Assembly: GCA_012735575.1 (NCBI GenBank)
Contig: JAAYGY010000057.1
Location: 1-42,330 of the forward strand
Origin: Clostridiales bacterium
GTDB taxonomy: Bacteria > Bacillota > Clostridia > Caldicoprobacterales > UBA3941
Length of the DNA stretch: 42,330 nucleotides
Direction of reading: 5' to 3'
Made by a program: the position numbers and the translations under genes. Numbering within the stretch: the first letter of the stretch is position 1; every line of letters begins with the position of its first letter. The notes under the pieces were generated by a model. The model made no database searches. It was not told where the DNA came from and worked only from the letters and a program-made list of their open reading frames with translations. Shown in pieces: positions 20,188 through 42,330 of the stretch.

Positions 20188-20196
20188 TTTTACCTC

Positions 20197-21494: not shown

Positions 21495-21524
21495 TTGACA
21501 TATATATTTAAAATAATTTATAAT
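21495..21524 (+). promoter_or_regulatory. Promoter of the lacI-family gene
   Basis: TTGACA (21495-21500), 18 bases, TATAAT (21519-21524): both hexamers perfect, about 35 bases before the start codon at 21562. Confidence 0.7.
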
Positions 21525-21561
21525 TTGAGTAGAACAATATAAAAGGGCGGGGCAGAACATA

Positions 21562-22596: not shown

Positions 22597-22610
22597 TTAT
22601 AATTTACAAA

Positions 22611-22658
22611 AAACAATGCCATATACCAGGAGTTCATATACTGGTATATGGCATTTTT
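22611..22658. terminator. Bidirectional terminator between lacI-family and GH3 genes
   Basis: A 15-bp perfect stem (22615-22629 with 22641-22655), loop of 11. It has TTTTT on the plus side and TTGTTTTTTG on the minus side, so it can end both converging transcripts. Confidence 0.9.
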
Positions 22659-22660
22659 AA

Positions 22661-24970: not shown

Positions 24971-25061
24971 CCCCTATATCCTTTCTATGGTTTTATAGAA
25001 AATGCATCTATTTATAATAGGCTTTTACAACACGCTTATTATACCACAACTCCATATAAAT

Positions 25062-25107
25062 AAAAAAACCACGGTCAATGGTCATTAATTTCCTTGACTA
25101 TGGTTTT
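25062..25107 (-). terminator. Terminator of the second importer operon (repeated element copy 1)
   Basis: A 12-position stem with one mismatch and one G-U pair (AACCACGGTCAA with TTGACTATGGTT), followed on the minus strand by TTTTTTTA, 51 bases after the last permease gene. A near copy of this whole element, including its loop, occurs at 41535-41584. Confidence 0.75.
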
Positions 25108-25157
25108 AAAGTTTTACTTAAAAAAATAGAAACAAAGGAGAGGGAACTCCCTCGCTT

Positions 25158-26051: not shown

Positions 26052-26066
26052 CTTATCACCGCCATT

Positions 26067-26975
26067 TTACCATAAACTCGTTTCGGAAACTCTTCTACTT
26101 ATGAAATTTGCAACAATAATCAGCACGAAGTTGATTACAGAGTTAAAAAGACCTACTGCGGTACTGTAGCTATAGTTTGATTCCTGAAGTCCTTTTCTGT
26201 ATACGAAACTGGATATTACGTCAGCAGTTTCATAGGTACTGGAGTTATATAACAAGATAATCTTTTCATATCCCACGCTCATCATACTGCCCAGACGAAG
26301 AATCAGCAGGATTATAATCGTAGGAGCAATACTGGGAAGAGTAATGTGAATAGTTTGTCTCCATCTTCCAGCACCGTCGATCATAGCGGCCTCGTACAGA
26401 TTAGGATTTATCGCAGACAAGGCTGCCAAATAAATAATACTTCCCCAGCCAACTCCCTGCCATATACCGGAACTTACATAAATTGTCCGGAATAACTCAG
26501 GTCTCATAAGCAAATTGGTAGGTTTAACCCCAAAATAGCTAAGAATAGTAGTAATAAGACCATCAGTAGCAGTAAAATCAATAATAATACCGCACACAAC
26601 TACTAAGGAAATAAAGTGGGGAAGATAGGAAATAGTTTGTATGGTTCGCTTAAAGACTCTGCTGTTAATTTCATTTATAAGCAAGGCTAATACTATGGGA
26701 GCAGGAAATCCCCATATCAGATCATATATGTTAATTAAAATAGTATTCCTGATTAAGCGTCCTACATAGTAGCTGCTAAAAAAGTCAGTAAAGTTTTTTA
26801 AACCTATCCAGTCACTTCCGAAGATACCTTTACCAGGTGAATAGTCTTTAAAGGCAATTATTACACCATACATGGGCCAATATGAAAATATGATAAAGAA
26901 AGCTATTACCGGAAGGACCATCAAATATATATACTTATTCTTTTTGAAATCACGACGAACAAGATCCCATTTCAT
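26067..26975 (-). CDS. Sugar ABC transporter permease, LplB/MalF type (second importer)
   Basis: The 302-residue protein has six membrane helices. The N-terminus MKWDLVRRDFKKNKYIYLMV is basic, followed by LPVIAFFIIFSYWPMYGVIIAFKDYSPGKGI, the LplB/YteP helix-1 and loop signature. The EAA loop is YEAAMIDGAGRWRQTIHITL (about residues 193-212). The start at 26975 follows GGGAGCGAAAAAT. It forms the channel with the 25158-26051 product. A strong stem-loop separates it from the lipoprotein gene upstream, so it is probably made at a lower level than that protein. Confidence 0.92.
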   Translation of the reverse strand: MKWDLVRRDFKKNKYIYLMVLPVIAFFIIFSYWPMYGVIIAFKDYSPGKGIFGSDWIGLKNFTDFFSSYYVGRLIRNTILINIYDLIWGFPAPIVLALLINEINSRVFKRTIQTISYLPHFISLVVVCGIIIDFTATDGLITTILSYFGVKPTNLLMRPELFRTIYVSSGIWQGVGWGSIIYLAALSAINPNLYEAAMIDGAGRWRQTIHITLPSIAPTIIILLILRLGSMMSVGYEKIILLYNSSTYETADVISSFVYRKGLQESNYSYSTAVGLFNSVINFVLIIVANFISRRVSETSLW

Positions 26976-27006
26976 ATTTTTCGCTCCCTAACATGACATA
27001 TTTTTT

Positions 27007-27047
27007 AAATCCAGGTGGTGGGCTATAATTACCACCAACCTGGATTT
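27007..27047 (-). other. Stem-loop after the second solute-binding protein gene
   Basis: AAATCCAGGT-GGTGG pairs with CCACC-AACCTGGATTT (about 15 bp with one bulge, loop of 10). It lies 17 bases after the lipoprotein stop codon and lacks a T-run. It holds the same position as the stem-loop at 17612-17651 in the other importer operon. Confidence 0.65.
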
Positions 27048-27063
27048 AAATAAGACAGACTCT

Positions 27064-28689
27064 TTATTTTCTGCTCATGTATCTATCCAAAGCAGCTTGT
27101 TGGATTGCGATGGCACGTTCAATATTCATACTCTTAATTTGCTCAACAAATTTATCAAAATTCTCCATGGGCTCTATTCCCATTATGAACTTAATACGAT
27201 TTTCTTGAATGTAGGTATTGATATCAGACATTATGGAGGAATATTCCTTATTCTCCTCTAATGTCATTGTTATCATAGGAATTACTTGAGCGCTTCCAGC
27301 CTCACCCCATACATCCATGGCTTCATAAATAGTATCTGTCATAACAAAAGCCTCATAGTCTCTTAAGTATGGTCCCATATGCAGTTTATATTTATGAGCC
27401 AGGGTGATATAGCTTAAGCCATCAGGATTATTGGTCATTAAATCGGTGAACTTAGGTTCTCCGTCAACCATTTCATAGCTTACGCCCTCAATACCCCAGT
27501 TAAACAGCATGGATCCTTCATCGCTGTAGTGGTAGTCAAACCATTTAACTGCTTCTTCAGGATTCTCACAAGCTGTAGTAATTACAGCAGTTGTACCTTT
27601 GTTAAAGTAGTTCTTTTGCCTGAACTCAACTGTTTCTCCCTCATTTAATGAAGGTGAAGGTACAGGTGCCAGTTTGAAATCAGGATTATTGGGCTTTGCT
27701 AAATTCTCGTAGTAGTCAAAGCTTTCATAAGCTCCAGCCCAGGCTGCTATATCTCCGTTTAGAATCATTGATTCTGTGTTATTACCATCACGTGAAGCAA
27801 AGTCCTGATCCAGAAGTCCTTCTTCATACCATTTTGCCATAAGGGTGATAAAATCTTTGTATCCTGGTTCAATTGGACCAAATTTTACCTGACCGTTATC
27901 GTTGTAAAATTCAGGACCGATTCCATAAGCACTTACAAACAAGCCGGAACTGGTAAACTGCCAGCTATCTATGTTATAGTGCAAAGGAACTTCTATGCCC
28001 TTATCCTTAAAGGCTTTTAAAACATTTTCCCAATCAGCGATGGTTTTTGGAATGTCTAAACCTAACTCATCAAGATAGTCTTTTCTAATCATTCCACCCA
28101 ACCATGGTGGCTCCTCTACATTTTGGATGCAATAGAAAGCTGCTATATTTCCATTATCAGTCATAGTTTCTGCAGCTATATCTTCATGAGATTCTCTTAG
28201 CTTTTGGTAATTTGGAGCATGTTCCATCAAATCGTTTAAGCTAATTATGACATTGTCTTCGATCGCTTTATCTAAACCGCCGGTATAGGAGAAGCTCTCA
28301 ATTATATCAGGCAGATCCTTAGAAGCAATCATTAGATTTAGCTGCTCTGTTTCCTGCCCGCTTGCAGGATGAAGAAATTCTATCTTTACTCCTGTTATTT
28401 CTTCAAGCTTTTTATAGATTTCATTTTCTCCATAATTCTCTAGAATCTTAACAGCTTGGCTGTGCATAGGAACCCAATAAGTAAAGGTTACATCTCCGGT
28501 TTTTGTTTCAGTAACATCATCAGAAGAATCATTTGCATCATTAGTATTGTTAGTAGTGTTATTTGAATCAGTGGTTTCGGTATTTGCATCATTTGATGTA
28601 TTACCGGTATTATTTTGTCCACAAGCCACTGTCAGGCTTATAAGCATAAGAATGCTTAAAAAAAGACACAGTATTTTTTTAGAAGACAT
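27064..28689 (-). CDS. Sugar ABC transporter solute-binding lipoprotein (second importer)
   Basis: The 541-residue protein begins MSSKKILCLFLSILMLIS and has the lipobox LTVAC with Cys23. A linker of Asn, Asp, Thr and Ser follows (about 25-65), then an extracellular solute-binding fold of the LplA/YtcQ type (TFTYWVPMHSQAV, then ENPEEAVKWFDYHYSDEGS). Members of this branch bind plant or microbial oligosaccharides such as rhamnogalacturonan fragments; the substrate here is unknown. The start follows AAGGAGGAAAAGT. It is the first gene of the importer unit and is preceded by its regulator. The adjacent GH3 gene hints at beta-linked glucosides or xylosides. Confidence 0.9.
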   Translation of the reverse strand: MSSKKILCLFLSILMLISLTVACGQNNTGNTSNDANTETTDSNNTTNNTNDANDSSDDVTETKTGDVTFTYWVPMHSQAVKILENYGENEIYKKLEEITGVKIEFLHPASGQETEQLNLMIASKDLPDIIESFSYTGGLDKAIEDNVIISLNDLMEHAPNYQKLRESHEDIAAETMTDNGNIAAFYCIQNVEEPPWLGGMIRKDYLDELGLDIPKTIADWENVLKAFKDKGIEVPLHYNIDSWQFTSSGLFVSAYGIGPEFYNDNGQVKFGPIEPGYKDFITLMAKWYEEGLLDQDFASRDGNNTESMILNGDIAAWAGAYESFDYYENLAKPNNPDFKLAPVPSPSLNEGETVEFRQKNYFNKGTTAVITTACENPEEAVKWFDYHYSDEGSMLFNWGIEGVSYEMVDGEPKFTDLMTNNPDGLSYITLAHKYKLHMGPYLRDYEAFVMTDTIYEAMDVWGEAGSAQVIPMITMTLEENKEYSSIMSDINTYIQENRIKFIMGIEPMENFDKFVEQIKSMNIERAIAIQQAALDRYMSRK

Positions 28690-28785
28690 ACTTTTCCTCC
28701 TTATTTAGCTAACTTAAAGTTAGTTGACAAGTTTGTTGAGTCAGTTGCGGTACCACTTTTAACCTTTAATCCAGCTGGCAAACCT

Positions 28786-28814
28786 ATTATAATCCAGCTG
28801 AAGGCAAAGGTAAA
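28786..28814 (-). promoter_or_regulatory. Promoter of the second importer, with repeated CAGCTGGATT motif
   Basis: On the minus strand TTTACC (28809-28814), 17 bases, TATAAT (28786-28791). The motif CAGCTGGATT occurs twice on the minus strand, 23 bases apart start to start, once across the -10 and once just downstream. This is the sort of direct repeat AraC-type regulators bind, but its position overlapping the -10 is unusual for an activator. Confidence 0.5.
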
Positions 28815-28952
28815 TGGTCAGCTTTTTCTCATTATCAGACTTTTCCTTGATCTAATTTTCTTGAGAAAAAAGGGGTATATAAAGGATATTATCAGTTTTT
28901 CAGCTATGAAATTAACCATTTTTGCCGATTAACTATTTTTTCTATGGCTTTT

Positions 28953-31271
28953 TTATAAATTCATATACTGTCCTGGGGTTATTTTTTCGTACTTTTTAAA
29001 GGAGCGGATAAAACTTATGCTGCTGTAGTAACCCACCTTGTGTGCAATCTCCTCTACGGTATAATTCCCTTCCCTCATTAGGGCTTTGGCTTTTTCTATG
29101 CGAACACTATGAATAAAATCCAGGAGATTAACGCCATGGTGTTTTTTAAAGTATTTAGAAATATAAGGCAATGAAACATCAAAATGCTGTGCTACCGATG
29201 AAACATTCAGATTCATGTCAGCATAATTTTCATGAATATATTTTATTATTGCAGCTTTCAAATCTTCTTTATCTTCAAGCTGCTTTTCTTTATCCGCATA
29301 AGAATGCATATCTTCTAAAATACTGTTTGCAACCTGCTGAAATTCCTTTACATCCTCGCAGGCCAACAGCCTTTCAAAAGGCTTGGTTTCTTCAATAAAT
29401 TTCTCTCCCAGAGTCGCACTTATTTCCCTTATGGCATTGATGAGTATATTGATTAATCCATACATTTGAAATTTCATTAATTTAACAGACTCTGAGGGTT
29501 TATAGAAATTATTTTTTATAATAGAGTTAAAGATATCTTTGGCCTCTTCGTAGTTCCCCGCTTTTATGCAATTAATAAATTTCTCTTCCTTCCTGGCAGT
29601 ATTACTTATATTGAAGGAATCCCCCTTTATACTGTCATACTTTATGACACGAGGAACCTCACCGATGGTGAACTTTTTGTATTCCATGGCTTCAATGGCC
29701 TCCTGGTATGCACTATTAATATTTTCTATATCCTCCACAATACTGCTTATAGAAACTGAAATAATTATCCCAAACTTATCTTTCATGAAGAGCTGGGCTG
29801 TATGGGCAACTTCACTTATCCAGTCTCCATCTAAGTCGGCACTATCTATGTTTACAAGACATACCAGCATGTCCTCTATTTCTATCATAAGTCCCTGGGA
29901 TTCTTTTGAGTTAATTAATTCTTCTACTATGTTTGTAATAATAAAACGAACCATCTCAATACTTTCATCTGCATTGAAATGCTCCTCATTCTTATTATAA
30001 AAAGCACTAAAGTCTTCTATGTAAAATAGAAGCACTGCAAATAGATGGCTTTTCAAGTTAATATTATAATTTTCAAAAGTAGACTGTATATAGTTGGGGT
30101 CGCTTATCTGCCCGGTTATTAGCCGGTTTATAAAATGCTTTTGTAATATCTTGTTTTGCTTTTCAAGGCGGTTTTGTAAAAACTGGTCCTTCTCTATCAT
30201 AGTATCGATAGTTTTTTCTATATCCCTATATGTTATATATTTATTATCAGGTGTATTTCCGGTGATTGTTCCAACTGTATTTACAATTTGACGAATAGGC
30301 TGATAATTTCTATTGGTAAACACCCACGAAAGGATACCCCCTGCTAAAAGGCAGCAAAAAATACTGCCTATCATAACATTTCTTATAAAACGGGCTTTTT
30401 CAAGATATACTTCGGTAGGCATCATTACTACATATTTCCAATCAGTTACTTTTGAGTGTATATGTGATACTAATACCTCTTGACCATCTACGGTCAGATG
30501 AAAGGAATCCTCCCTTTGATTTAGGACATCAAAATTTATTTCCTCAGGAAGAGAAGCATTATTATTAGATATAATTACTGAATTATTACTATCTATGATA
30601 TAAATATTACCTTTGTCAAGCCAATCCATTTCATCCAACCAGCTATATACAGCATCCATATCCAGCAATATCATAAGGGTAGCATCTGATTCAGTGTATT
30701 TTTCAAAGGGAAGGGAGCGGATATAAGCTATTAACTGTTTAAGCTGGCCTTTATTATTTATTGCCTCATATGGCATAAATTTGTTTTGCTGGGATCTGTT
30801 AAGCATATTAATCCAATCCTCATATACCACTCCTGATGATTCTACATATATGTTATAGTAATCTTTTACATGGCACATTCCATTGTTTGACAGAACAAAA
30901 TCATTGTATTTATAGTAAATAAACAAACTATCAATATCGTTATTAGCCAGTTTTAGAGTTTTCAGGTTTTTTATAAAATTTGCAATGTTCAGTCGCTGTA
31001 CTGAAGATAGGTTTTGTGCTGAATACCTGGATATAGACCTGCTTTTATCATTCCATGAAACTTCAATTGCTAGATTTTGAATATCAGAAAAAGTAGACTC
31101 CATCATTTCATTCAACTGCTGTAAGGAAGCGGCATGAGTTTTGTTTATTTCTTTTTCAATAACAGAAACAGAAAGCATATAAGATACTAATATCAAGACT
31201 ATAGGTATTATTAGAATCAATATATAGGATAAAAACCAAGAAAAATAAATATTACCTTTGTCTTTAAACAC
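28953..31271 (-). CDS. YesS-like membrane-anchored AraC-family regulator
   Basis: The 772-residue protein has a membrane helix at about 11-33, an extracellular sensor region (about 35-290, dCache-like) and a second helix at about 296-314. A long cytoplasmic region follows, and the C-terminus is an AraC DNA-binding domain (about 670-772) with its two helix-turn-helix units: LNVSSVAQHFDVSLPYISKY, then YTVEEIAHKVGYYSSISFIR and the end KKYEKITPGQYMNL. This matches Bacillus YesS/YtdP, one-piece sensors that activate neighbouring LplABC-type importers. No receiver domain is present, so no separate kinase is needed. The start is GTG at 31271 after GGAGGAAAAAAA. It lies directly upstream of the importer on the same strand, which it most likely controls. 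Confidence 0.88.
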   Translation of the reverse strand: MFKDKGNIYFSWFLSYILILIIPIVLILVSYMLSVSVIEKEINKTHAASLQQLNEMMESTFSDIQNLAIEVSWNDKSRSISRYSAQNLSSVQRLNIANFIKNLKTLKLANNDIDSLFIYYKYNDFVLSNNGMCHVKDYYNIYVESSGVVYEDWINMLNRSQQNKFMPYEAINNKGQLKQLIAYIRSLPFEKYTESDATLMILLDMDAVYSWLDEMDWLDKGNIYIIDSNNSVIISNNNASLPEEINFDVLNQREDSFHLTVDGQEVLVSHIHSKVTDWKYVVMMPTEVYLEKARFIRNVMIGSIFCCLLAGGILSWVFTNRNYQPIRQIVNTVGTITGNTPDNKYITYRDIEKTIDTMIEKDQFLQNRLEKQNKILQKHFINRLITGQISDPNYIQSTFENYNINLKSHLFAVLLFYIEDFSAFYNKNEEHFNADESIEMVRFIITNIVEELINSKESQGLMIEIEDMLVCLVNIDSADLDGDWISEVAHTAQLFMKDKFGIIISVSISSIVEDIENINSAYQEAIEAMEYKKFTIGEVPRVIKYDSIKGDSFNISNTARKEEKFINCIKAGNYEEAKDIFNSIIKNNFYKPSESVKLMKFQMYGLINILINAIREISATLGEKFIEETKPFERLLACEDVKEFQQVANSILEDMHSYADKEKQLEDKEDLKAAIIKYIHENYADMNLNVSSVAQHFDVSLPYISKYFKKHHGVNLLDFIHSVRIEKAKALMREGNYTVEEIAHKVGYYSSISFIRSFKKYEKITPGQYMNL

Positions 31272-31340
31272 TTTTTTTCCTCCAATAATGTCATAGTATA
31301 TTTCAAGCTCTTCTCTTGACTTTAAAACTATACCACAGGC

Positions 31341-31436
31341 TTATCTGATATTTTAGACTTTTTTGATTACTAATATTAAAAGTACAAAAATAGTCTAGAT
31401 AAAACTCCAGACTATTTCAGGCAAAATATCAGATAA
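31341..31436. repeat. Nested inverted repeats between the YesS-like and UroD-fold genes
   Basis: An outer 14-base perfect inverted repeat (TTATCTGATATTTT at 31341-31354 and its complement at 31423-31436) encloses the smaller terminator hairpin at 31388-31417. The two could form a nested structure in RNA or a cruciform in DNA. Confidence 0.5.
31384..31418 (-). terminator. Terminator after the UroD-fold gene
   Basis: AAATAGTCT (31388-31396) pairs with AGACTATTT (31409-31417), and TTTTTG follows on the minus strand. It lies about 55 bases past the stop codon at 31471 and ahead of the regulator gene. Confidence 0.65.
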
Positions 31437-31470
31437 ATTTATCCATATATTCCCTGCTTAATGTCTCTAT

Positions 31471-32556
31471 TTACTCGATGCCATACTCAACCAGCCGTCT
31501 CCTTATTTCAGCCTCCTGGGATATATGAGCAACAATGGTAGGATGATGAATACCCTTTCCTGTACCAATATGGGCAATTATCTTGTCCAGTCCGTCCAAA
31601 CCTTCCAATACCTGGGTCTTTCTTCCGGCTTTACTAATCTTTTCATAGACCTCCGGCCATTGGGACTGTGGAGGTTTTCCATCTCCCGGTATCCATTGGA
31701 TTCCATCCAATTCATCAATGTCTAAGATAGAATCCAGATGGGCCAGCTGCCCTGCGCCATCAAGATGATAGAAAGATCTATCTAATCTTTTGCAGGAAGC
31801 TTCCAATTCAGGCTTGCAAAATTCATCGAACATTTCAGGACCGATCATATAGCTAAAGTCACACTGGAGTATGTAGCTGGGCTTGTCGCTGTATATCTGG
31901 GACCAGTCAGAATAGCCAGGGTTTACAGGCTGTAATATATCATTTAATTCATTATAGAATCGGAACCAAAGCTGGTGCAGTTCCCAGGTTAGCCTTTTGA
32001 CCTGGTCCGGATAATCATAAAGGTCCAATAAGAGATTCTCTCCAGGACGGAATGTGGAAAGTATGTCAAGCACTCCTCCCAGATCCGTCATCCCCATGAG
32101 TACCTGACCCTGCCAGCGTTTCATTCCTTCATAATATATCTCTTTTATCCGGTTCAACCAAACATTATCAGAATCATATTCAAAATGCAGTTCAGTAATA
32201 GGCAATACCTCTTCTGGGTGAAACCAAACCCGGCCTGTAGAGTTATCCAATCTGGCTCCTAGAAAGGCTGCTACTACTCCCGGGCCAAAACAATCCATGT
32301 TAAAATAAGGAAAACTATCTCCTAAATACACATTTTGGGACAGTTCATAATCGATTCTGTCTATTATTTCACTAGCCGGAATCGACAGATCGGTGCATGT
32401 TTCCTGTGAAAGTAGTGGAACACTTGGTTTTGCTCTTCCTGATTCATTTCCTCTTAGGACCACGGATATAATGGGTCTATCCAGTCTACCTTCCCACCAA
32501 AGCCTATAGGTTTCCTTAACCTTATCCCACTGGTTTTGAGAAAATTCTATGCCCAT
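31471..32556 (-). CDS. UroD/corrinoid-methyltransferase-fold protein of unknown function
   Basis: The 361-residue protein resembles proteins annotated as uroporphyrinogen decarboxylase family or trimethylamine corrinoid protein 2-like. Visible family features are WWEGRLDRPIISV at the N-terminus, MGMTDLGGVLDILSTFRPGE (about residues 153-172), DFSYMIGPEMFDEFCKPEL (about 235-253) and FYHLDGAGQLAHLDSIL with DGIQWIPGDG. A TIM-barrel fold is expected. The H-x-C zinc motif of corrinoid methyltransferases is not present: at the equivalent place it reads HLDG. Enzymatic activity is therefore unknown, and haem synthesis is unlikely. The start follows GGGGGTAGGAAA. It lies next to a sugar-importer regulator, on the same strand, so a role in sugar or glycan metabolism is possible. 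Confidence 0.65.
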   Translation of the reverse strand: MGIEFSQNQWDKVKETYRLWWEGRLDRPIISVVLRGNESGRAKPSVPLLSQETCTDLSIPASEIIDRIDYELSQNVYLGDSFPYFNMDCFGPGVVAAFLGARLDNSTGRVWFHPEEVLPITELHFEYDSDNVWLNRIKEIYYEGMKRWQGQVLMGMTDLGGVLDILSTFRPGENLLLDLYDYPDQVKRLTWELHQLWFRFYNELNDILQPVNPGYSDWSQIYSDKPSYILQCDFSYMIGPEMFDEFCKPELEASCKRLDRSFYHLDGAGQLAHLDSILDIDELDGIQWIPGDGKPPQSQWPEVYEKISKAGRKTQVLEGLDGLDKIIAHIGTGKGIHHPTIVAHISQEAEIRRRLVEYGIE

Positions 32557-34361: not shown

Positions 34362-35201
34362 TCAATTTTGGTTTGATTCTTTGTATTTGGCATCTTCTTT
34401 TTCATAATATTCTTTAAGCTCTAAAAATGCTTTTGTAAGTCTCTCTTCCAAACCTTCTTCATAAATATCACTATATAAGAAATCCTTTACCCAAATCTCT
34501 TCTCTGTTATCATTGGGTAAACCGTCATCCTTGCGAGGTTTTTCTAATGCAAAATCTATAGCATAAAAAGGCACATCTTCTTTATCAAAAATCTCTTTCA
34601 GTTCCATTAAAATTTCACTTGCCTTTTTTATGGTGACTTCTTCGCTTTCTATATAAATAGTGATATGCCCTGCTGTTTTTGCTAATTCTTTAACATCATA
34701 TTTCTTATCAAGTTCTAGATCCTCTAAAACCAGTCCATAAGCTGGCCTAATAGGCCCAATTTCTATATCCGTTTCTTTAATTTCTATAGAACCAAAATCA
34801 ATATGGCTATCATAAGGAAAATCAGGCGCATTAAGTACTTTGTCCACCATTGTACGATATTCCAAATCTATACGCTGCCAGGTATTCCAGCCACTTATAA
34901 CATGGCTTTCATATGAATCATAAAGAATTTTTCCTGTCATAGAGATATCTAAATTAAAGTGTGTATCAATACTAGTTTGCGATTTAATTAAAGCATAATA
35001 AGATCCGGTCTTAAAACTATAATTAACCCTTTCAACCTTCAAATCCAAATTGGGATAATTTTTTTGTATGTATTTTGATGCACTTTGTTTGGCAAGGGTC
35101 TTTGAAACAGGATTCCCAACCATGCCATTAGCAACAAAAAGCAATATACCAATTAATATAATTGCTGTTATTCCCGCCATAATTTTAATTGTCTTTTTCA
35201 T
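34362..35201 (-). CDS. YfjL-like membrane-anchored protein of the second ECF module
   Basis: The 279-residue protein has one N-terminal membrane anchor (about 6-25, IMAGITAIILIGILLFVANG). A YfjL-like extracytoplasmic domain follows: GNPVSKTLAKQSASKYIQ, then RVNYSFKTGSYYALIKSQ, DTHFNLDISM and ISGWNTWQRIDLEYR. B. subtilis YfjL and relatives have no known function. It overlaps the anti-sigma gene by 17 bases, and its ribosome-binding site AAGAGGTAGATT lies inside that gene, so translation is probably coupled. It is the third gene of sigma - anti-sigma - YfjL-like and may be a signal-input or target protein. No anomalies are seen. Confidence 0.7.
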   Translation of the reverse strand: MKKTIKIMAGITAIILIGILLFVANGMVGNPVSKTLAKQSASKYIQKNYPNLDLKVERVNYSFKTGSYYALIKSQTSIDTHFNLDISMTGKILYDSYESHVISGWNTWQRIDLEYRTMVDKVLNAPDFPYDSHIDFGSIEIKETDIEIGPIRPAYGLVLEDLELDKKYDVKELAKTAGHITIYIESEEVTIKKASEILMELKEIFDKEDVPFYAIDFALEKPRKDDGLPNDNREEIWVKDFLYSDIYEEGLEERLTKAFLELKEYYEKEDAKYKESNQN

Positions 35202-35739
35202 AATCTACCTCTTTTCTAAATGCAAATTTGAGTAAAAATGCAATGACGATACCAAACAAAACCAGCCCACTGTAGATACAGCTCAAAAATACAGGAGCAT
35301 ATAATAAATTAAAGACACTATCTATAGGGAAAGATCGATCAATAATATAATTAATTAAAGACCAGATATATGAAAGTATAAAAATAGCAATAGGAAAGTA
35401 GAAGGATTTTCTATTTAAAGCAAAATAAGCAATTCCCCCTACAAGTGGAAAAATGATAATGTTATAGAACATTCCTGGACCTTCCGAAAGGCCAATACCA
35501 ATTAAGGTACCAATAATAACGGTTGCCAGTGCTATCAAATATAGTTGCTTTTTAATTTTTTGAATCACTCGTTTATCATTCATTTCTGGAAGGGTATAAT
35601 TGCCACTTTCATATTCATTTTTGCAGCCTTGGCATTGACGGATGTGTTCAAATACCAGTTTTCTACTTTCTTGGCTTGCAACATTATCTTTTACCAATGG
35701 CATTAAGTCCAGACACACCTGGCAAGAAATTTTAGTCAT
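35185..35739 (-). CDS. Zinc-finger (zf-HC2) anti-sigma factor, module 2
   Basis: The 184-residue protein has an N-terminal anti-sigma zinc-binding domain (C6...H32-x3-C36-x2-C39: FEHIRQCQGCKNEY). About four hydrophobic segments fill the rest, so it is a membrane protein. Such proteins hold their ECF sigma factor inactive until an outside signal releases it. It overlaps the sigma gene by eight bases and the YfjL-like gene by 17, as in a tight operon. The start at 35739 follows GGAGGGTTTGAGCA. The signal it senses is unknown. Confidence 0.8.
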   Translation of the reverse strand: MTKISCQVCLDLMPLVKDNVASQESRKLVFEHIRQCQGCKNEYESGNYTLPEMNDKRVIQKIKKQLYLIALATVIIGTLIGIGLSEGPGMFYNIIIFPLVGGIAYFALNRKSFYFPIAIFILSYIWSLINYIIDRSFPIDSVFNLLYAPVFLSCIYSGLVLFGIVIAFLLKFAFRKEVDYEKDN

Positions 35740-36232
35740 TGCTCAAACCCTCCTTTTCTAATATTGCCCTGATTTTTCTCTTTGTACGAAAATCTATTAC
35801 CCTAGCCGAACTTTCTGATATATTATATTTCATAGCTATTTCATAAAAGGAATAACCTTGAATTCGCATAAGCACTATCCCTTTTTTTATATCACCTTCA
35901 TTCTCTAATAGCATCATAATTTTATTTACCATAGTTTTATTTATAAAAAACTTTTCAAGGTCTTCTCCTTGGCTCAAATATTCTCTAGCCAGATAATCGA
36001 AACTGGTAGTATATTTCTTTTTTCGCAAATACCCATACCATTTGTTTCGTGCAATAGAAAATAACCAGGTCTTAATGTCAGAGTTCCCTTTAAAATTATG
36101 TATGGATTTAATTGCAGCCAAAAATGTATCTGACACTAAATCTTCTGAAAGGGTGGGATCATGAGTGAGACTAACAAGATATATGTACACATCTTTCCTG
36201 TGTTTCTCATAGATGTCTTTTATACAAAACAT
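35732..36232 (-). CDS. ECF RNA polymerase sigma factor, module 2
   Basis: The 166-residue protein has the ECF layout. Region 2 (about 5-72) contains YIYLVSLTHDPTLSEDLVSD and TFLAAIKSIHNF, then IKTWLFSIARNKWYGYLRKK. Region 4 (about 110-160) includes MRIQGYSFYEIAMKYNISES and SARVIDFRTKRKIRAIL. The start follows GAAAGGGGGATTTT. A candidate ECF-type promoter with -35 TGTAAC and a 16-base spacer lies at 36256-36281, compatible with autoregulation. It forms a three-gene module with its anti-sigma factor and a YfjL-like protein. Confidence 0.88.
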   Translation of the reverse strand: MFCIKDIYEKHRKDVYIYLVSLTHDPTLSEDLVSDTFLAAIKSIHNFKGNSDIKTWLFSIARNKWYGYLRKKKYTTSFDYLAREYLSQGEDLEKFFINKTMVNKIMMLLENEGDIKKGIVLMRIQGYSFYEIAMKYNISESSARVIDFRTKRKIRAILEKEGLSND

Positions 36233-36255
36233 AAAATCCCCCTTTCATATTATTA

Positions 36256-36281
36256 GTATCCTATTCATAAGTTTTGTTACA
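36256..36281 (-). promoter_or_regulatory. Candidate autoregulated ECF promoter, module 2
   Basis: On the minus strand TGTAAC (36276-36281), 16 bases, ATAC (36256-36259), just upstream of the sigma gene. It shares the TGTAA -35 and spacing with the module 1 promoter at 38337-38362. Confidence 0.4.
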
Positions 36282-36400
36282 CTAATTCTTGAGCATTTTT
36301 GAAATCCCTATTAAGCTCAATATACCGGAAATTAACAGCGATATCAAATCTTATTACAAATCTTCTCATCTAAAGTAGTTAACAGCACCTTAACACCGCT

Positions 36401-36925
36401 TTATTTTCTACTTCGATGAATCTTATCTATTTTCTTTTGTTCATCTTGTAGTCTTGAATATGAGCCATGCACTAATCTTTTTTTCCCATCAGACACACCA
36501 ATAATATAATACTGGAAAACTTTGAGCCATTGTTGAAAGGTTATATAAGCAGGACAATCAGTCATGCTAAATCCAACATCCTTTGAAACTCGCTTTAGTT
36601 GTTTGTGGCTAAAAATCTATTTACATCTTTCTCTCATATTACCACTTCTTTTAAATATATAGGCAATAAAATCCCTATATAAATCAGCCTAGTCTTTATT
36701 TATAAGTGCCTTTTTTCGTTTGCCAATATGAAGTAATACACTATTGACACTAGGTACAGGACTAAAATCAGTTCTTTTTAGCTTATATATAATCTCCAAA
36801 TCAAAATATGGTTTAAGAAGTAAGGAACGCATACTTTCTTTATTATAGGGATTTCCAGCATACTTTCTTGCTGCCTCTTCTTGAATTATAAGATAGGCAT
36901 CTTCAAGCGGATTTGATGAGGGATC
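36401..36925 (-). pseudogene. Erm-type 23S rRNA adenine-N6-methyltransferase remnant
   Basis: One minus-strand frame from about 36925 to the stop at 36401 reads SSNPLEDAYLIIQEEAARKY, then AGNPYNKESMRSLLLKPYF and FSPVPSVNSVLLHIGKRKKA. It continues through IFSHKQLKRVSKDVGF and AYITFQQWLKVFQYYI to DKIHRSRK. This is the C-terminal 60% of an Erm/KsgA-type rRNA dimethyltransferase of the clostridial Erm kind. The N-terminal SAM-binding half is absent: homology begins two bases from the stop codon of the anti-sigma gene. Two in-frame TAG stops interrupt it (36689-36691 and 36617-36619), so it is dead. Intact relatives are about 280-290 residues; about 172 codons remain. The rearrangement that placed the sigma/anti-sigma genes against it probably removed the 5' half. 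Confidence 0.8.
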
Positions 36926-36926
36926 A

Positions 36927-37832
36927 TTATAGTTTCACTTTCTTTGTTTTCCTGTATGACCTATACAGCTTGATAGAAAGTAATAACAAGCAATAGATTG
37001 GAATCATTAGCAATAAAATTAAAAAGAAATCCCGATATGCTAAATATGAAGTAGTTATAAAGCCTTTAATGCAAAGATGGCTGAAAAAATAAGAGATAGG
37101 TAACAGGAAAATCCTTTCCATTGCATTTCTTATATTGTCTTTTTTTCTAAAGATGAACAAGAGAATCCCACATAAAATTGCCAGTACTCCAACTATAACC
37201 AAATAATATCCAAGGAATAATCTAGGTAAGGTTCTAATTCCACCTCCAGGATTTTGGTCTTTTCCATAAATTAAAATATCATCTTTCCCATCAGTAGAGT
37301 AATAATATATGGATGCAACTTTATCTCCACCAGGATTCAATATTATGCTTTGTATATTATTTTTAAGGAAATATTGGTTGAAAATTGTATTCCAAGTAGT
37401 TATATGATAAATATCTCCTGTGCCGTCTCCTATACTATATTTCTCAATATCATATCCAGCTACCTTATGGTTAAATGTAATTATTATTTTACCGTCCTCA
37501 TATTCAGTTAAAGACATATTATTATTAGAATAAGGTAAGTAGTCTGGAGATGTAAGATAGGCCATACCTATTATTACCACCACCAATACTAAAGCAACAG
37601 TTACAGTAACTATTTGAATTTGTTTTCTAAAAAGTTTTCTTTCTATTTTTTTAAAGGGTTCAACAATAGTATCTATTGGAATTTCTCCAGGATCTTGAAA
37701 AAACTCAAGCTGTTTTTTGCAATTTGAACAAGTCTTAAGGTGCTCTTCTACAAGTATTCGGGTATCATCACTTGCCAAGTCTTCTACATACAAAGGCAAC
37801 AGATCATTAATTACATCACATGAAAGTTTCAC
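36927..37832 (-). CDS. Zinc-finger (zf-HC2) anti-sigma factor, module 1
   Basis: The 301-residue protein has an N-terminal zinc-binding anti-sigma domain (C5...H31-x3-C35-x2-C38: EEHLKTCSNCKKQ). It then has a membrane helix (about 72-92), an extracytoplasmic domain of about 110 residues (about 93-205) and three more C-terminal membrane helices. Its start codon overlaps the sigma gene stop by four bases (ATGA). It binds and restrains the ECF sigma factor and may sense envelope stress through its outer domain. The stop codon abuts the erm remnant, so the downstream flank has been rearranged. The outer domain is unlike any I can name. Confidence 0.8.
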   Translation of the reverse strand: MKLSCDVINDLLPLYVEDLASDDTRILVEEHLKTCSNCKKQLEFFQDPGEIPIDTIVEPFKKIERKLFRKQIQIVTVTVALVLVVVIIGMAYLTSPDYLPYSNNNMSLTEYEDGKIIITFNHKVAGYDIEKYSIGDGTGDIYHITTWNTIFNQYFLKNNIQSIILNPGGDKVASIYYYSTDGKDDILIYGKDQNPGGGIRTLPRLFLGYYLVIVGVLAILCGILLFIFRKKDNIRNAMERIFLLPISYFFSHLCIKGFITTSYLAYRDFFLILLLMIPIYCLLLLSIKLYRSYRKTKKVKL

Positions 37833-38314
37833 TGATATTCCTCCATTTCTCTTTGAATTTTCTTTCTACTACGATGATAAGTGACACAGGCCCAGTTTTC
37901 TGTTTTCCCAAAAATATCTCCTATTTGCTTGAAAGACAGCTCTCCAAAGACGCGAAGTGAAAAGACTTCCTTATACGGCTCTTTTAATCTATGTAAAATT
38001 TTATGAATTTTTAAAGTATCTTCTTTTGAAACTATTAACTGTTCCAAATTTATTTCACTTTTACGCTCTGATATGGTATCTGTAAAGATGACTTTCTTAT
38101 TCTTCCGTAAAAATGAAAAATAGCTGTTTTTTGCAATTTGGCATAGCCATATGCGAATATCACAGTCTCCCCTAAAGGTATCAATTGATTTAATGGCTCT
38201 GATAAAAGTTTCGGAGGTAATATCTTCAGCTATATGCTCATCTCCTGATAAGCTTTTTATATAAAGATATACATCTTTAAAATACATTTTATACAGACTT
38301 TCCAGCTCGGTCAC
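37829..38314 (-). CDS. ECF RNA polymerase sigma factor, module 1
   Basis: The 161-residue protein has region 2 (YIKSLSGDEHIAEDITSETF, then IRIWLCQIAKNSYFSFLRKN) and region 4 (EVFSLRVFGELSFKQIGDIF, then TENWACVTYHRSRKKIQREM). It starts with GTG at 38314, behind a perfect site, AGGAGGTGAAAAA. A candidate autoregulated promoter lies at 38337-38362. It is paralogous to the second ECF sigma factor 1.6 kb away, though the two differ widely in sequence. Targets other than itself cannot be read. Confidence 0.88.
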   Translation of the reverse strand: MTELESLYKMYFKDVYLYIKSLSGDEHIAEDITSETFIRAIKSIDTFRGDCDIRIWLCQIAKNSYFSFLRKNKKVIFTDTISERKSEINLEQLIVSKEDTLKIHKILHRLKEPYKEVFSLRVFGELSFKQIGDIFGKTENWACVTYHRSRKKIQREMEEYQ

Positions 38315-38362: not shown

Positions 38363-38426
38363 GTTTATTCTAAGAGGAACGAGTTTATTATCTTTGATGC
38401 AACTTTATTTTAACTTGACATAGTTA
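38355..38426. repeat. Half copy of the TTTATTT array repeat
   Basis: Three direct units spaced 20 bp apart (TTTATTC at 38364, TTTATTA at 38384, TTTATTT at 38404), followed by a degenerate centre near 38422 and no inverted arm. The stretch around unit two, GAGGAACGAGTTTATT, is identical to the copy at 41583 onwards. Confidence 0.65.
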
Positions 38427-38467: not shown

Positions 38468-39013
38468 TCAAACTGAAGCAAAAAATCTTTCCAGGTTCTC
38501 CGGAAGCTTATATGATTCTTTAAAAGTTTCTTCATTTGACAGAGTTTCTGTATCAGTATACACTTCACGTAGTATAGCATCAACAATCATTGCTTTTGGT
38601 GGAACATTATACTCTTTCCCTTTGTATATCCAGACTCGACAATCAACCTCATCATCACATAAATCTCCACAAGACTCACATAGAGATTCCTTAAATTCCA
38701 TTTGTATATCCCTTCCGTTTACCCGTATAGTAGGAGAAGTCAAAAATTCGTGTTGTATTGCCTTCTCCCTGCTATTAATATGGATTTTGTTTACAACTAT
38801 TTCTACGCCTGTTAATTCGAGTACCTTTGCCACATCCTCGGTAGCTTCTTCCAGACCTTCATCAGTTCCCTGGCACCGATTGCAGACATCTAGATCTAAA
38901 TATAGAAAGTCAATGATTATTTTATTACTCTCCTCAATTTGGTCTAGTTCTGCACTTCCGCAACATCCCGTATTGCATTAACAACCCACATTTTGTGGCT
39001 GACAACAATCCAT
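38468..39013 (-). pseudogene. DUF2703 cysteine-rich arsenic-operon protein with in-frame stop
   Basis: The frame starts at 39013 with an ideal site (AAGGAGTGATTGGTC) and reads MDCCQPQNVGC, then TAA at 38978-38980. It continues in the same frame as CNTGCCGSAELDQIEESN, IIIDFLYLDLDVCNRCQGTD and on to the end at 38468. The C-N-R-C motif, the SPTIRVNGRDIQ motif and CESCGDLCDDEVDCRVW are the DUF2703 core, a small thioredoxin-like family found in arsenic operons. Between the TAA and the CNRC motif there is no ATG, GTG or TTG. The first GTG is at 38833, inside the domain after CNRC. The gene is thus broken, or begins at an unusual codon (an ATT or ATA near 38910-38930 has a GAGGAG site). Confidence 0.75.
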
Positions 39014-39042
39014 GACCAATCACTCCTTCTTAAATCCATGAA

Positions 39043-39270
39043 TTATAAATGCTTTTTAATTTCCTCTACCGACGCAACTTTCCCGGATATCTTTACCTGT
39101 TCATCCACTACCAAAGCAGGGGTGGTCATTACTCCATAGCTGACAATGTCCTTAAAATCAGTTACCTTCTCTATTGTAGCTGCTATTCCTAATTCTTCTA
39201 CTGCTTTTCTAGCATTCACCTCTAATTTTTTGCAGTTCCTGCACCCTGAACCTAAAATTTTAATAATCAT
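39043..39270 (-). CDS. Small thioredoxin-like redox protein of the ars operon
   Basis: The 75-residue protein has the redox-active pair C10-x2-C13 in LGSGCRNCKKLE and a cis-Pro-like TTPALVVDEQVKISGKVAS, the pattern of the thioredoxin-family redox-active disulfide protein 2. These proteins often accompany arsP permeases in arsenic operons, where they may reduce or deliver substrate. It lies 17 bases after arsP on the same strand. The start follows AGAAGGAGGATTCGATT. Cytoplasmic. A role in arsenical transport is inferred. Confidence 0.8.
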   Translation of the reverse strand: MIIKILGSGCRNCKKLEVNARKAVEELGIAATIEKVTDFKDIVSYGVMTTPALVVDEQVKISGKVASVEEIKKHL

Positions 39271-39287
39271 AATCGAATCCTCCTTCT

Positions 39288-40304
39288 CTATATAAAGATA
39301 TATGAAAATGCATTAAATGCATATCCTATTATAATTATCCCTACTACCACAATACCTATAAATAGAGCCAATAGTTTTGGCTTTATTACCTTACTCAACA
39401 TTATTATGGAAGGAAGGGATAAGGTGGTTACTGCCATCATAAAAGATAATACGGTACCTATACCTACTCCTTTAGCAACTAGAGCCTCTGCTATGGGTAG
39501 AGTGCCAAAGATATCAGCATAGATTGGTAAGGCCACAACTGTTGCCAACAATACTGCAAAGGGATTATTCCCTCCTAATATTTTCTCTATAAAGGATTGA
39601 GGGATCCAATTGTGTATTGCTGCCCCTATGCCTACTCCAATCAAAATATATAGCCATACTTTATGAATAATATCCTTTACCTGATCCTTTGCAAAAGAAA
39701 TCCTCTCTTCACGAGTCATTTCATCGGCTTCACTATCTATATTCTGTGCTGACCAGACATAATCTTCAATATGTTTTTCCATACCTGACTTCTCAATAAT
39801 AGTTCCACCTATAACTGCAAGTATCAAACCTACAACTACATAGGCGATTGCTACCTTGGCTTCAAAGAAAGACATCAGTAATAGCAAAGAGGCTATATCT
39901 ACCATAGGTGAAGATATCAAGAAAGAGAAAATAATCCCCAGTGGAAGTCCTGCAGAGGTAAATCCAATAAAAATAGGAATACTTGAGCAACTACAAAACG
40001 GCGTTACTGTGCCTAGTAAAGCACCTAATATATTACCTTTAATGCCTTTAAACTGTCCAAGAATTTTCTTGGTTTTCTCTGGCGGAAAGTAACTTTGAAT
40101 ATATGAAATCACAAAAATAAGTACTGCCAAGAGTAAAAATATCTTTATGGTATCATAGATAAAAAAGTGTATGCTGCCGCCTAGTCTCTCCTCTATAGGT
40201 AAGCCAAATACTTTTTCGACTAGGATTTGTACTAAATCCCAAAGCCATTGCATTTTTAAAAATTGGTCATTTATGAAACCAAATATGGCATTTATCGCAT
40301 CCAT
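39288..40304 (-). CDS. arsP: ArsP-type permease (DUF318), organoarsenical/arsenite efflux
   Basis: The 338-residue protein has about eight membrane helices and the invariant motif TPFCSCSSIPIFIGF (C104 and C106). It also has SPMVDIASLLLL and a second GxG/LPIYADIFGTLPIAEAL pattern typical of ArsP and related permeases (DUF318). Characterised ArsP proteins export trivalent organoarsenicals; others of the family accompany arsenite genes. The start at 40304 follows AGAGGGTGTTTTT and lies inside the apparent acr3 leader frame. It is the third intact gene of the ars operon and is followed by the thioredoxin-like gene. Confidence 0.85.
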   Translation of the reverse strand: MDAINAIFGFINDQFLKMQWLWDLVQILVEKVFGLPIEERLGGSIHFFIYDTIKIFLLLAVLIFVISYIQSYFPPEKTKKILGQFKGIKGNILGALLGTVTPFCSCSSIPIFIGFTSAGLPLGIIFSFLISSPMVDIASLLLLMSFFEAKVAIAYVVVGLILAVIGGTIIEKSGMEKHIEDYVWSAQNIDSEADEMTREERISFAKDQVKDIIHKVWLYILIGVGIGAAIHNWIPQSFIEKILGGNNPFAVLLATVVALPIYADIFGTLPIAEALVAKGVGIGTVLSFMMAVTTLSLPSIIMLSKVIKPKLLALFIGIVVVGIIIIGYAFNAFSYIFI

Positions 40305-40395
40305 AAAAACACCCTCTAACCGTCTTATTATAAGGTAAGATATTTTTGAAAAAGCCTATACCTTCTTTGTTTACTTTGATATTATTGCTGTCCAT
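40267..40395 (-). pseudogene. Probable 5' remnant of an ACR3 arsenite exporter gene
   Basis: The frame starts at 40395 with AGGAG upstream and reads MDSNNIKVNKEGIGFFKNIL, then PYNKTVRGCFYGCDKCHIWF, and stops after 42 residues. GIGFF-K/E-x-L is the N-terminal motif of ACR3-family arsenite exporters, which sit between arsR/arsC and other genes in such operons. Everything after FFKNIL is unlike ACR3, so most of the gene would have been deleted and the frame now runs into arsP, overlapping its first 38 bases. It could instead be a leader peptide. The resemblance is short. Confidence 0.45.
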
Positions 40396-40404
40396 AATTA
40401 TATG

Positions 40405-40423
40405 TCTCCTAACAATTAGGAGA
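40405..40423 (-). promoter_or_regulatory. Stem-loop sequestering the leader-frame ribosome-binding site
   Basis: TCTCCTAA-3-TTAGGAGA: an 8-bp stem whose downstream arm on the minus strand contains the AGGAG (40406-40410) used by the frame starting at 40395. This would hide the site in folded RNA. Confidence 0.4.
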
Positions 40424-40447
40424 TATATTTATAGCAATTGAATGATT

Positions 40448-40467
40448 GTATTCGCATACACTCATAT
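40448..40467. promoter_or_regulatory. Second ArsR-operator-like site inside the ars operon
   Basis: GTATTCGCATACACTCATAT matches the candidate ArsR operator upstream of arsR (41375-41394) at 15 of 20 positions, in the same orientation. It lies between arsC and the acr3 remnant, where an internal regulated promoter could be, but no clear -10/-35 pair is seen. Confidence 0.4.
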
Positions 40468-40544
40468 TTGCCGTACATTCTTCTATTAAATAATTTAATT
40501 TTACTTATCGTTCCTGCTAACCTTTTTCCGTTTTTGCTTTGTTC

Positions 40545-40955
40545 CTATAGAACTATTTTATTGCTTCTAATTCGTTCTGCTAAATCTTTAACTTTCTCTT
40601 CAATCATTAAAGCAGTTTTTCTAAATTCCTCTTCATCCTTACCAGTGGGATCATCCAATCCCCAATCCTCTTCATGCTTGGAAGGCAAGTAGGGACAAGC
40701 AACGTTACAACCCATAGTCACAACTATATCAACCTCTGGTATATCTGCAATTAGTTTGGAGTGTTGGGTTTCATTCATGTCTACCCCGTATAAGTCTCTT
40801 ATTATTTTTACTGCATCCTGATTTATTTCGGGCTTTATTTCGGTACCTGCAGAATAGGAATCAAAAACATCTGAAGTAAATAGCTTGGCTAGTGCTTCTG
40901 CCATCTGGGATCTACAAGAATTGTGAACACAGATAAAGGCTACTTTAGGTTTCAT
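40545..40955 (-). CDS. arsC: Arsenate reductase, thioredoxin-coupled (LMW-phosphatase type)
   Basis: The 136-residue protein has the phosphatase-like loop C9-VHNSC-R15 (with C14) and a redox pair C83 and C87 in MGCNVACPYLP. The DDPTGKDEEEF motif supplies the catalytic Asp. This is the S. aureus/B. subtilis ArsC type, which reduces arsenate to arsenite using a three-cysteine relay and thioredoxin. The cysteine pair is three residues apart here rather than the six of S. aureus (82/89), as in many Clostridia. The start at 40955 has AAAGGAGGATAATT; an in-frame Met seven codons upstream lacks one. It lies 27 bases after arsR. Confidence 0.92.
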   Translation of the reverse strand: MKPKVAFICVHNSCRSQMAEALAKLFTSDVFDSYSAGTEIKPEINQDAVKIIRDLYGVDMNETQHSKLIADIPEVDIVVTMGCNVACPYLPSKHEEDWGLDDPTGKDEEEFRKTALMIEEKVKDLAERIRSNKIVL

Positions 40956-40982
40956 AATTATCCTCCTTTCATCCATAAATAA

Positions 40983-41354
40983 TTAACTATCAAAACATAG
41001 TTTCCCATCCTTCAAATCATCACAAGAAATCCCACTCTCCCGATATTGACTCAATCTGTTCAGATCTTCCCTACATCGTTCTACTTTAACTAATTCATTA
41101 TCCAATATTTCTTTAATGAAAGGATATTCTCTTAATGTATCTTCATCAATTCTATAATAAACATACTGTGCGCGTTTTTCAGACTCCAATATCCTGGCAT
41201 TTGCTAGTCTGTTAAGATGCCTAGAGGCATTGGATTGATTTATATCAAGTAGCGCTTCCAACTCACATACACATAACTCCCCCTGGTATAGTAAGTTTAG
41301 AATACGCAATCTTGTCTCATCGGACAATGCTTTTATCACTTGTATGAGTTCCAC
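40983..41354 (-). CDS. arsR: ArsR/SmtB-family arsenic-responsive repressor
   Basis: The 123-residue protein has a winged helix (about 10-80): ALSDETRLRILNLLYQ, then LLDINQSNASRHLNRLANAR. The arsenite-binding signature E27-L-C-V-C-E-L (C28 and C30) is the E. coli/R773 type of As(III) site. The C-terminal tail adds Cys residues (C94, C110, C119), which may help bind. The start is GTG at 41354, after GGAGGTGACAAG. A promoter (41393-41421) and a palindrome next to its -10 (41375-41394) suit autorepression released by arsenite. It is the first gene of the ars operon. Confidence 0.92.
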   Translation of the reverse strand: MELIQVIKALSDETRLRILNLLYQGELCVCELEALLDINQSNASRHLNRLANARILESEKRAQYVYYRIDEDTLREYPFIKEILDNELVKVERCREDLNRLSQYRESGISCDDLKDGKLCFDS

Positions 41355-41374
41355 CTTGTCACCTCCATATGACC

Positions 41375-41394
41375 ATATTCGATTATAATCATAT
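41375..41394. promoter_or_regulatory. ArsR operator
   Basis: The perfect core GATTATAATC (41381-41390) is flanked by ATATTC and ATAT, a partly symmetric 20-base site just downstream of the arsR -10 region. Binding is inferred from position. Confidence 0.5.
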
Positions 41395-41421
41395 ATTATG
41401 CTTCTAATTATTATCTGTCAA
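41393..41421 (-). promoter_or_regulatory. Promoter of the ars operon
   Basis: On the minus strand TTGACA (41416-41421), 17 bases, TAATAT (41393-41398), about 40 bases before the arsR start codon. Confidence 0.65.
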
Positions 41422-41534
41422 CTCCTAATGAAACTTTCTTCCCTAAATATGGTCCACTAATTTGTTAAATATGCATATTACAATATTGGTTCGTCCTTGC
41501 TCTGATCTTAAATCTATCTGACATCAACCTTAAC

Positions 41535-41584
41535 AAAAAAACCATGGTCAATGGGCACTTGAAATCCCTTGACTATGGTTTTTT
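41535..41584. terminator. Terminator-like hairpin, near copy of the one at 25062-25107
   Basis: AACCATGGTCAA pairs with TTGACTATGGTT (12 positions, one G-U), flanked by A7 on one side and T6 on the other. The loop (TGGGCACTTGAAATCCC) is related to that of the element at 25062. No gene ends here, so it looks like a displaced or mobile terminator. It abuts the array repeat. Confidence 0.6.
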
Positions 41585-41841
41585 GACATGACTTTATTTA
41601 CTTGAGGAACGAGTTTATTTTCTTTGATACGACTTTATTTGATTATCACAACTATTGTGCAAACAAAATAAACTCCCGCCAAAAATAAAATAAACATCTG
41701 TCACAAAAATGTCCACAAACAGCAGTAAATCAATGTTTGTTATTATCTGCTATTTCTTATCTATTTTTCCTTTTTTCTAATATTTCATCGCCTTTTTTAC
41801 CATTTAGTTACAGAAATGAGAGCCAAAAAGAAAATAAAGAT
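41583..41841. repeat. TTTATTT array repeat, copy 1
   Basis: Three direct units (TTTATTT at 41593, 41614 and 41634) face two inverted units (AAATAAA at 41666 and 41688) across the palindrome CACAACTATTGTG (41647-41659). A further inverted unit lies at 41832. Units are 20-22 bp apart, about two helical turns. Unit consensus is roughly TTTGA-4-ACTTTATTT. Confidence 0.7.
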
Positions 41842-41847
41842 CTATCA

Positions 41848-41909
41848 GGAATAAGGTAAAAGGATCAAGGGATTTGGAGGTATTATACCTTCCTTATTCC
41901 TTGATCCTT
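41848..41909. repeat. Fold-back structure between the two array copies
   Basis: AAGGATCAAGG (41860-41870) pairs with CCTTGATCCTT (41899-41909). GGAATAAGG (41848-41856) can instead pair with CCTTATTCC (41892-41900). An inner GGAGGTAT/ATACCTTCC also pairs. The arms overlap, so two folds compete. Confidence 0.5.
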
Positions 41910-42027
41910 ATCTCTTTAAAGGCTGTAGTGTCAGGGGGTTAAGGGGTTAGGGGTTCTAGTAATTCTTCCTGATTTTCTTCGTGAAATTTATCATTTTCCA
42001 CTTGTCCCTTATCCCTAAATTCCTTCA

Positions 42028-42290
42028 CCCTGATAAAACTTTATTTTCTCTGACATAACTTTATTTAATTTGATGAGGGTTTATTTGCTTTTGACAACTA
42101 TTGTGTAATCAAAATAAACTCATGCCAAAACGCAAATAAACTCGTTCCACAAAAGCCCCTGTAACCCCCTTCAAATCAACCTTTGTCATTTCTTAACTTT
42201 TCTAGCCTTTTTCCCCAATTCACTCTTTTTTTCTTATCCCATTCCCATTAAACTCCAAATATGGCAGCGATAAAAGTAAATAAAGTCGTT
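42028..42290. repeat. TTTATTT array repeat, copy 2
   Basis: Direct units at 42040, 42060 and 42080, centre ACAACTATTGT (42094-42104), inverted units at 42112, 42134 and 42278. Distances from the centre (-33, -13, +13, +35, +179) are identical to copy 1, whose centre is 446 bp upstream; the outermost direct unit differs by one base (-53 here, -54 in copy 1). Confidence 0.7.
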
Positions 42291-42330
42291 CCTTCGTTTG
42301 GGGGGAAATGGGAGTAGTATAAGAACAAAA

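Follow-up and report, generated by a model that had tools for sequence, protein, structure and literature searches.

Repeat units and element ends in the window

What kind of locus ends in two groups of evenly spaced short repeats? The 42,330-nt stretch of DNA analysed here (the window) is the entire contig C31 of its host assembly, and both groups lie close to the contig terminus at 42330. Measured from the centres of the groups, TTTATTT starts at -60, -39 and -19 in copy 1 and at -59, -39 and -19 in copy 2, and AAATAAA starts at +13, +35 and +179 in both, with the +35 unit of copy 1 overlapped by an additional match at +30 in the run AAATAAAATAAA. These are the positions at which the initial annotation had placed the units, and shuffle counts confirm the repeat: the two 7-mers occur 13 times in the 748 bp from 41583 to 42330, compared with a mean of 1.1 in 2000 dinucleotide shuffles (maximum 8), and six pairs coincide at the same shift between the copies, compared with 0.17 expected (maximum 2 in 2000 dinucleotide shuffles). 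None of the 2000 shuffles reached either observed count. The copies are 78% identical across 95 bp, and one also aligns with the reverse complement of the other (74%, E 6e-9). A third occurrence, at 38364-38420, is a half copy with the three direct units only.

The centres of the two copies, 41651-41655 and 42097-42101, are the same 5-mer, ACTAT, located between two transposon termini. Clean single ends of relatives (L019 and L026) have the terminus TGT followed by AAATAAASTCGTTCC units from position 11, from which it follows that each window copy consists of a right end, five bases and a left end. The idea of two symmetric multi-site copies thus holds for the kept spacing and fails for the symmetry: each copy is a junction of abutting ends (a right end finishing in ACA, then ACTAT, then a left end beginning with TGTG) rather than one symmetric site, and the mobile unit spans from one centre to the next. 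The parts of the window array are as follows.

38364-38420, + strand: what remains of the close-spaced right end belonging to an older element, with three direct units at 20-bp pitch and the terminus ...TTGACA at 38420.
38468-41354, - strand: arsenic-type gene cluster identified by Pfam (DUF2703, thioredoxin-like protein, ArsP-type permease, ArsC-like low-molecular-weight phosphatase, ArsR), between two right ends.
41580-41650, + strand: right end of the left-hand element, with units at 41593, 41614 and 41634, the terminus ...ATCACA and the same map as right ends of relatives.
41651-41655, no strand: ACTAT, 5-bp target duplication of junction 1, matching the ATAGT that precedes the recR-adjacent element end on contig C68 of this genome.
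41656-42096, + strand: complete, gene-less 441-bp mini element, TGTG...GACA, with left-end sites at 41666, 41688 and 41832 and right-end sites at 42040, 42060 and 42080.
42097-42101, no strand: ACTAT, 5-bp target duplication of junction 2, identical to junction 1 and to the recR flank.
42102-42330, + strand: left end of the next element, with sites at 42112, 42134 and 42278; the contig stops 229 bp into it.

In the 441-bp mini (41656-42096), where a search for open reading frames found none, putative TnsB sites start 11, 31 and 51 bp from the right terminus and 11, 33 and 177 bp from the left. The remnant end at 38364-38420, of which the reverse complement is TGTCAAGTTAAAATAAAGTTGCATCAAAGATAATAAACTCGTTCC, matches copy 1 at 92% over 37 bp, and the boundary near 38420 is decayed, with no clean 5-mer. 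The interiors and flanks of most minis in unrelated hosts, including the window at 41850-42020, have abundant degenerate AAGGGATAAGG and CCTTATCCCTT sequences, often as hairpins.

The arsenic-type cluster has a partial parallel in another genome (G006). There, recR and its Tn7-like ends are followed at 1.6-5 kb by relatives of arsR (67.5%) and of the DUF2703 gene (70%), arranged and oriented as in the window; G001-G003 and G005 lack the ArsP gene. The cluster is likely to be cargo of the array with a decayed left boundary. To the left of the half copy, 35185-38314 encodes two adjacent pairs of an ECF sigma factor and a zinc-finger anti-sigma factor, and 13342-31271 is an ordinary sugar-use cluster of GH38, GH130 and GH3 genes, solute-binding proteins, an ABC permease and LacI and AraC regulators.

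The address behind recR

A pair of units at 20-bp pitch was found in 18 of the 391 genomes of the class, and a reversed control pattern had no matches. In the window, G002, the genera of G007, Herbinix, C. prolinivorans and cel8, right-end sites begin at 11, (31) and 51 and left-end sites at about 11, 33 and 177; the left end of one element (G009) is shortened. Overall identity between the window type and the other mapped elements (in the genera of G007, Herbinix, C. prolinivorans and cel8) is 46-51%, so the combination of conserved spacing and diverged filler described in the initial annotation extends across genera; the refuting condition named there, loss of the spacing in other genomic copies, does not hold. 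The exact centre pattern of the window had no match in scans of genome and viral contigs, nor did the general end pattern in viral contigs; as far as seen, the elements are not phage-borne. Beyond the arrays (L126:7700-8300, L175:700-1600), unit pairs recur with a TTTTTCTGTTTCTAAAAAT...AGAAACAGAAAA hairpin between them, perhaps as a further, smaller class of element.

The relative in G002, 455 bp long and 75% identical to the window mini, is a single copy behind recR with ACTAT on the recR side, which led to the prediction that recR of the window genome would also adjoin such an end. This end was found on contig C68, where recR (31232-31828) is followed by 14 bases past the stop ending in ATAGT and then by TGCATAAACCAAATAAACTCC..., and the contig ends 209 bp past recR. 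Because the 5-mer at recR (ATAGT, or ACTAT on the other strand) is that of both window junctions, the window contig very probably breaks inside a tandem array built by serial insertion at recR, with the join between C31 and C68 falling in an assembly gap. The first element on C68 belongs to another subtype; the 164-189 bp of it that are visible match elements of G025, G027, C. prolinivorans and Herbinix at 87-90% identity. By the insertion rule set out below, this element would be the latest arrival, and the older type of the window would lie further out.

Ends of this kind are present in 34 of 50 distinct recR 3' flanks, with the right end towards recR. The distance from the end to the recR stop is 15 bp in 21 flanks, 14 bp in seven, 16 bp in three, 12 bp in two and 11 bp in one, although the intervening bases differ, a constancy that points to the conserved end of recR as the sequence read by the selector. 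Of 32 ends of the TGTCTACATC type, 26 are located at recR and none at the second site described below. The recR contigs of G000, G003, G012, G018, G023, G025 and G027 break within about 300 bp behind recR in draft assemblies; such arrays are therefore systematically lost from short-read genomes.

The second site is a GNAT acetyltransferase gene, behind which TGTAAACATC ends are located in 13 of 20 cases, with none at recR. The TnsD proteins of recR and GNAT elements fall into distinct clades; identity is 74-81% and 67-95% inside the clades and about 32% from one to the other. In L038, L036, L070, L069, L073 and L168, the TGTAAACATC group lies 25-35 bp behind the last aligned acetyltransferase codon. 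Minis at this site are about 375 bp long and occur in tandem (for example, L070 8012-8765). In both GNAT-type elements, tnsB is split near residue 245 (L069:12047-15784 in G361; L030:808-2277 and 8257-8994 in G007:C31), by a 1.4-kb gap in G361, for which an Rfam search gave no match, and into parts on opposite strands in G007:C31. A search of the GNAT-type element of G361, a genome in one contig, revealed no second terminal repeat.

These observations bear on two explanations that involve no active transposon. The units could be a host or plasmid protein-assembly site, such as iterons, a partition site or an operator upstream of arsR, being symmetric, intergenic and upstream of that gene; this is extremely improbable, because in many genera such units stand behind recR and GNAT genes, with TGT/ACA at their limits and 5-mers that vary from genome to genome, and because the arsR promoter region (41355-41450) lies outside them. 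Iterons and a partition site, which the initial annotation had offered as alternatives, are contradicted by the recR result. An array that has lost its mobility and been retained for a function in the host, such as terminators or a buffer behind recR, is unlikely but less remote: no tns genes were found in this genome, the interiors contain hairpins, and ends next to recR survive as remnants in several families of the order. Nonetheless, the interiors diverge freely, different types being about 50% identical, and G004, G008, G029 and other genomes have no array behind recR, so that there is no sign of selection on it.

Tn7-like relatives and long terminal repeats

The best explanation of the locus as a whole, and one held with high confidence, is that the end of the window lies inside a tandem array of derivatives of a Tn7-like transposon at recR. 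Ends of the same kind surround part of tnsB, tnsC and tnsD, with tnsA alongside, on contig C31 of G007, and a complete tnsA-tnsB-tnsC-tnsD operon on its contig C15; matching TnsB, TnsC and TnsD proteins are encoded by Herbinix hemicellulosilytica and Clostridium thermopalmarium. The leading guess of the initial annotation, that these are ends of Tn7/Tn5090/Mu-like transposons with several transposase sites, is thus borne out by relatives with the same ends. Pfam families PF08721, PF08722 and PF15978 (tnsA and TnsD-family genes) were identified in elements with these ends. The window ends themselves have the cis features of Tn7-like elements: arrays of sites near both termini, a 5-bp duplication (found at the window junctions and in G007, Herbinix and cel8) and insertion specific in site and orientation. 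The outermost site of Tn7-like elements is offset from the boundary by a median of 12 bp (PMC8649781), and the window sites begin at 11.

Ownership of the ends by another DDE family with multiple end repeats (IS21, Tn5053/Tn402, Tn552 or Mu-like) is very improbable. Such families share end repeats of about 20 bp and 5-bp duplications, and Benler 2021 names Tn5090, Tn5053 and Tn552 (PMC8649781), but the gene set of tnsA and a TnsD-family gene is of Tn7 type, and the address and orientation are fixed. IS21 and Tn5053, with IstAB or with TniABQR but not TnsA, were ruled out, since the presence of TnsA and TnsD makes the elements Tn7-like.

For the Tn7-like derivatives, the following mechanism is proposed. 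The unit of about 20 bp, with the consensus AAATAAASTCGTTCC read inward, would be a binding site of the TnsB transposase, with three putative sites at 20-bp pitch in the right end and, in the left end, a pair at 22-bp spacing plus another site 144 bp deeper inside. TnsABC steered by TnsD would insert about 10 bp behind the recR stop, always in one orientation, duplicating 5 bp. The newest insertion would land beside recR and push older ones outward; since each insertion would occur next to recR, neighbours would be separated by the same 5-mer, here ACTAT.

No tnsA, tnsB, tnsC or tnsD/tniQ genes are present in the window. Neither a TnsC or TnsD homologue in the window's own genome assembly nor a complete element with ends of the window type (TGTG/TGTC) was found. 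Because both are lacking, the tns gene set in the window and TnsC and TnsD in its genome, the window copies are classed as non-autonomous relatives rather than full members; the 441-bp element at 41656-42096 would be one such copy, and the copies in this genome may be inert relics. A 285-aa frame of rve type on contig C29, the sole such match in the genome, is of the wrong size for TnsB.

Complete elements in relatives suggest where gene-less minis may come from. On contig C15 of G007, repeats that begin at 11181 (the recR-proximal mini) and 54703 are identical at 452 of 452 positions, and the unit spans 43,974 bp from outer end to outer end with ATATT on both flanks. In Herbinix, a unit of about 58 kb with TTTGC on both flanks is delimited by repeats at 5994 and 63898, which are identical throughout 451 bp; TTTGC also marks a further junction on a second Herbinix contig. 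In Clostridium sp. cel8, a solo copy has ATAAT on both sides. Judging from sequence, complete recR elements are built as repeat, interior and repeat, each repeat being apparently a whole mini able to stand alone, a design observed only in the TGTCTACATC type and in two draft assemblies. The inner junctions are shared by several genera, with the repeat and TAG[AT]TAGGATTAAGG... on one side and ...CCTG[TC]ATCTA and the repeat on the other (L124-L126 of G007:C15; L139, L175 and L177 of Herbinix), and similar sequence flanks many single ends. The interior of the 44-kb recR element (G007:C15 24325-54614, L124-L126) encodes a type I restriction-modification set, a reverse transcriptase (DRT-like) and SMC-like ATPases. 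Defence-type genes are the usual cargo of Tn7-like elements.

The window mini resembles the 452-bp repeats of G007 and Herbinix in length and site map, with about 50% identity, and no complete parent of the window type was found. Since the complete 44-58 kb elements of relatives have such pieces as their long direct terminal repeats, minis look like, and are best read as, solo repeats of longer elements; like solo LTRs, they may have been left by recombination between two terminal repeats, or have moved in trans. Identical repeats within one target duplication can arise either by transposition of the whole unit or by recombination of a circle into a solo copy. A competing possibility, less than probable yet not slight, is that minis are MITE-like internal-deletion derivatives moved in trans, and that the repeats around full elements reflect chance insertion of minis on both sides. 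Internal-deletion MITEs are common among other bacterial DDE elements, the window type has no known repeat-flanked parent, and GNAT-type minis exist with no repeat-flanked complete element shown. Against chance insertion, the target duplication encloses the entire repeat-interior-repeat unit in G007 and Herbinix, the repeats are identical, and the recurrence of the inner junctions in several genera fits an inherited composite better than repeated chance insertion.

On balance, the solo-repeat reading is somewhat favoured in its wider form: a Tn7-like clade of Clostridia would have an LTR-like design, with identical direct terminal repeats of about 450 bp that are complete mini transposons in themselves, and would alternate between a full form, solo minis produced by recombination and possibly circles that re-enter at a resident mini, with the 3' end of recR as the address at which copies stack, and would be a bacterial counterpart of KolobokP. 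Tn7-like minis and long direct terminal repeats were absent from the literature searched, and as most subscription papers were outside the search, their novelty is provisional.

Comparison with known systems and significance

The elements share with Tn7 and TnsD-guided Tn7-like transposons the arrays of TnsB-type sites of about 20 bp, close-spaced at the right end and wide-spaced at the left, the TGT/ACA termini, the 5-bp duplication, the fixed orientation behind a conserved gene and, in full relatives, tnsABCD. They differ in having three right-end sites compared with four in Tn7, in stacking gene-less minis in tandem, in the 451-452 bp direct terminal repeats of the recR elements, and in using recR or a GNAT gene as the address in place of glmS, tRNA, comM, yhiN or parE. 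The Tn7-like addresses named in the literature searched are glmS, tRNA, parE, comM, yhiN, guaC, yciA, ffs and rsmJ; neither recR nor a GNAT gene was among them, a novelty that is provisional because most subscription papers were outside the search.

The nearest described design is that of KolobokP of animals (PMC9587614), in which a transposase interior is enclosed by long direct repeats that measure about 450 bp and carry inverted termini of their own, solo repeats exist and can move, and multimers occur. This likeness is convergence and not family membership, since the KolobokP transposase is an unrelated eukaryotic one with no TnsD-type address, whereas the bacterial multimers are separated by target duplications. 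Composite transposons of bacteria, consisting of two IS copies and cargo, are similar in that an interior is framed by two copies of a shorter mobile unit and the entire structure moves by its outer ends, but the flanking unit here encodes nothing and the transposase genes are interior. Tandem Tn7-like islands at one attachment site also arise by repeated insertion beside the same gene, which leaves elements adjacent, as mentioned in PMC8649781; the stacked units here are mostly minis of about 0.4 kb.

Two chromosomal addresses, recR and a GNAT gene, are thus added to those of TnsD-type selectors, which may be of use in understanding and choosing programmable insertion proteins. Minis that resemble solo LTRs are stacked in Tn7-like arrays, and because draft assemblies break or lose such arrays, the number of such islands is probably underestimated. 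A second life cycle, based on recombination, is suggested by the direct-repeat design, and the stacked, diverged copies are a natural record of elements getting past target immunity.
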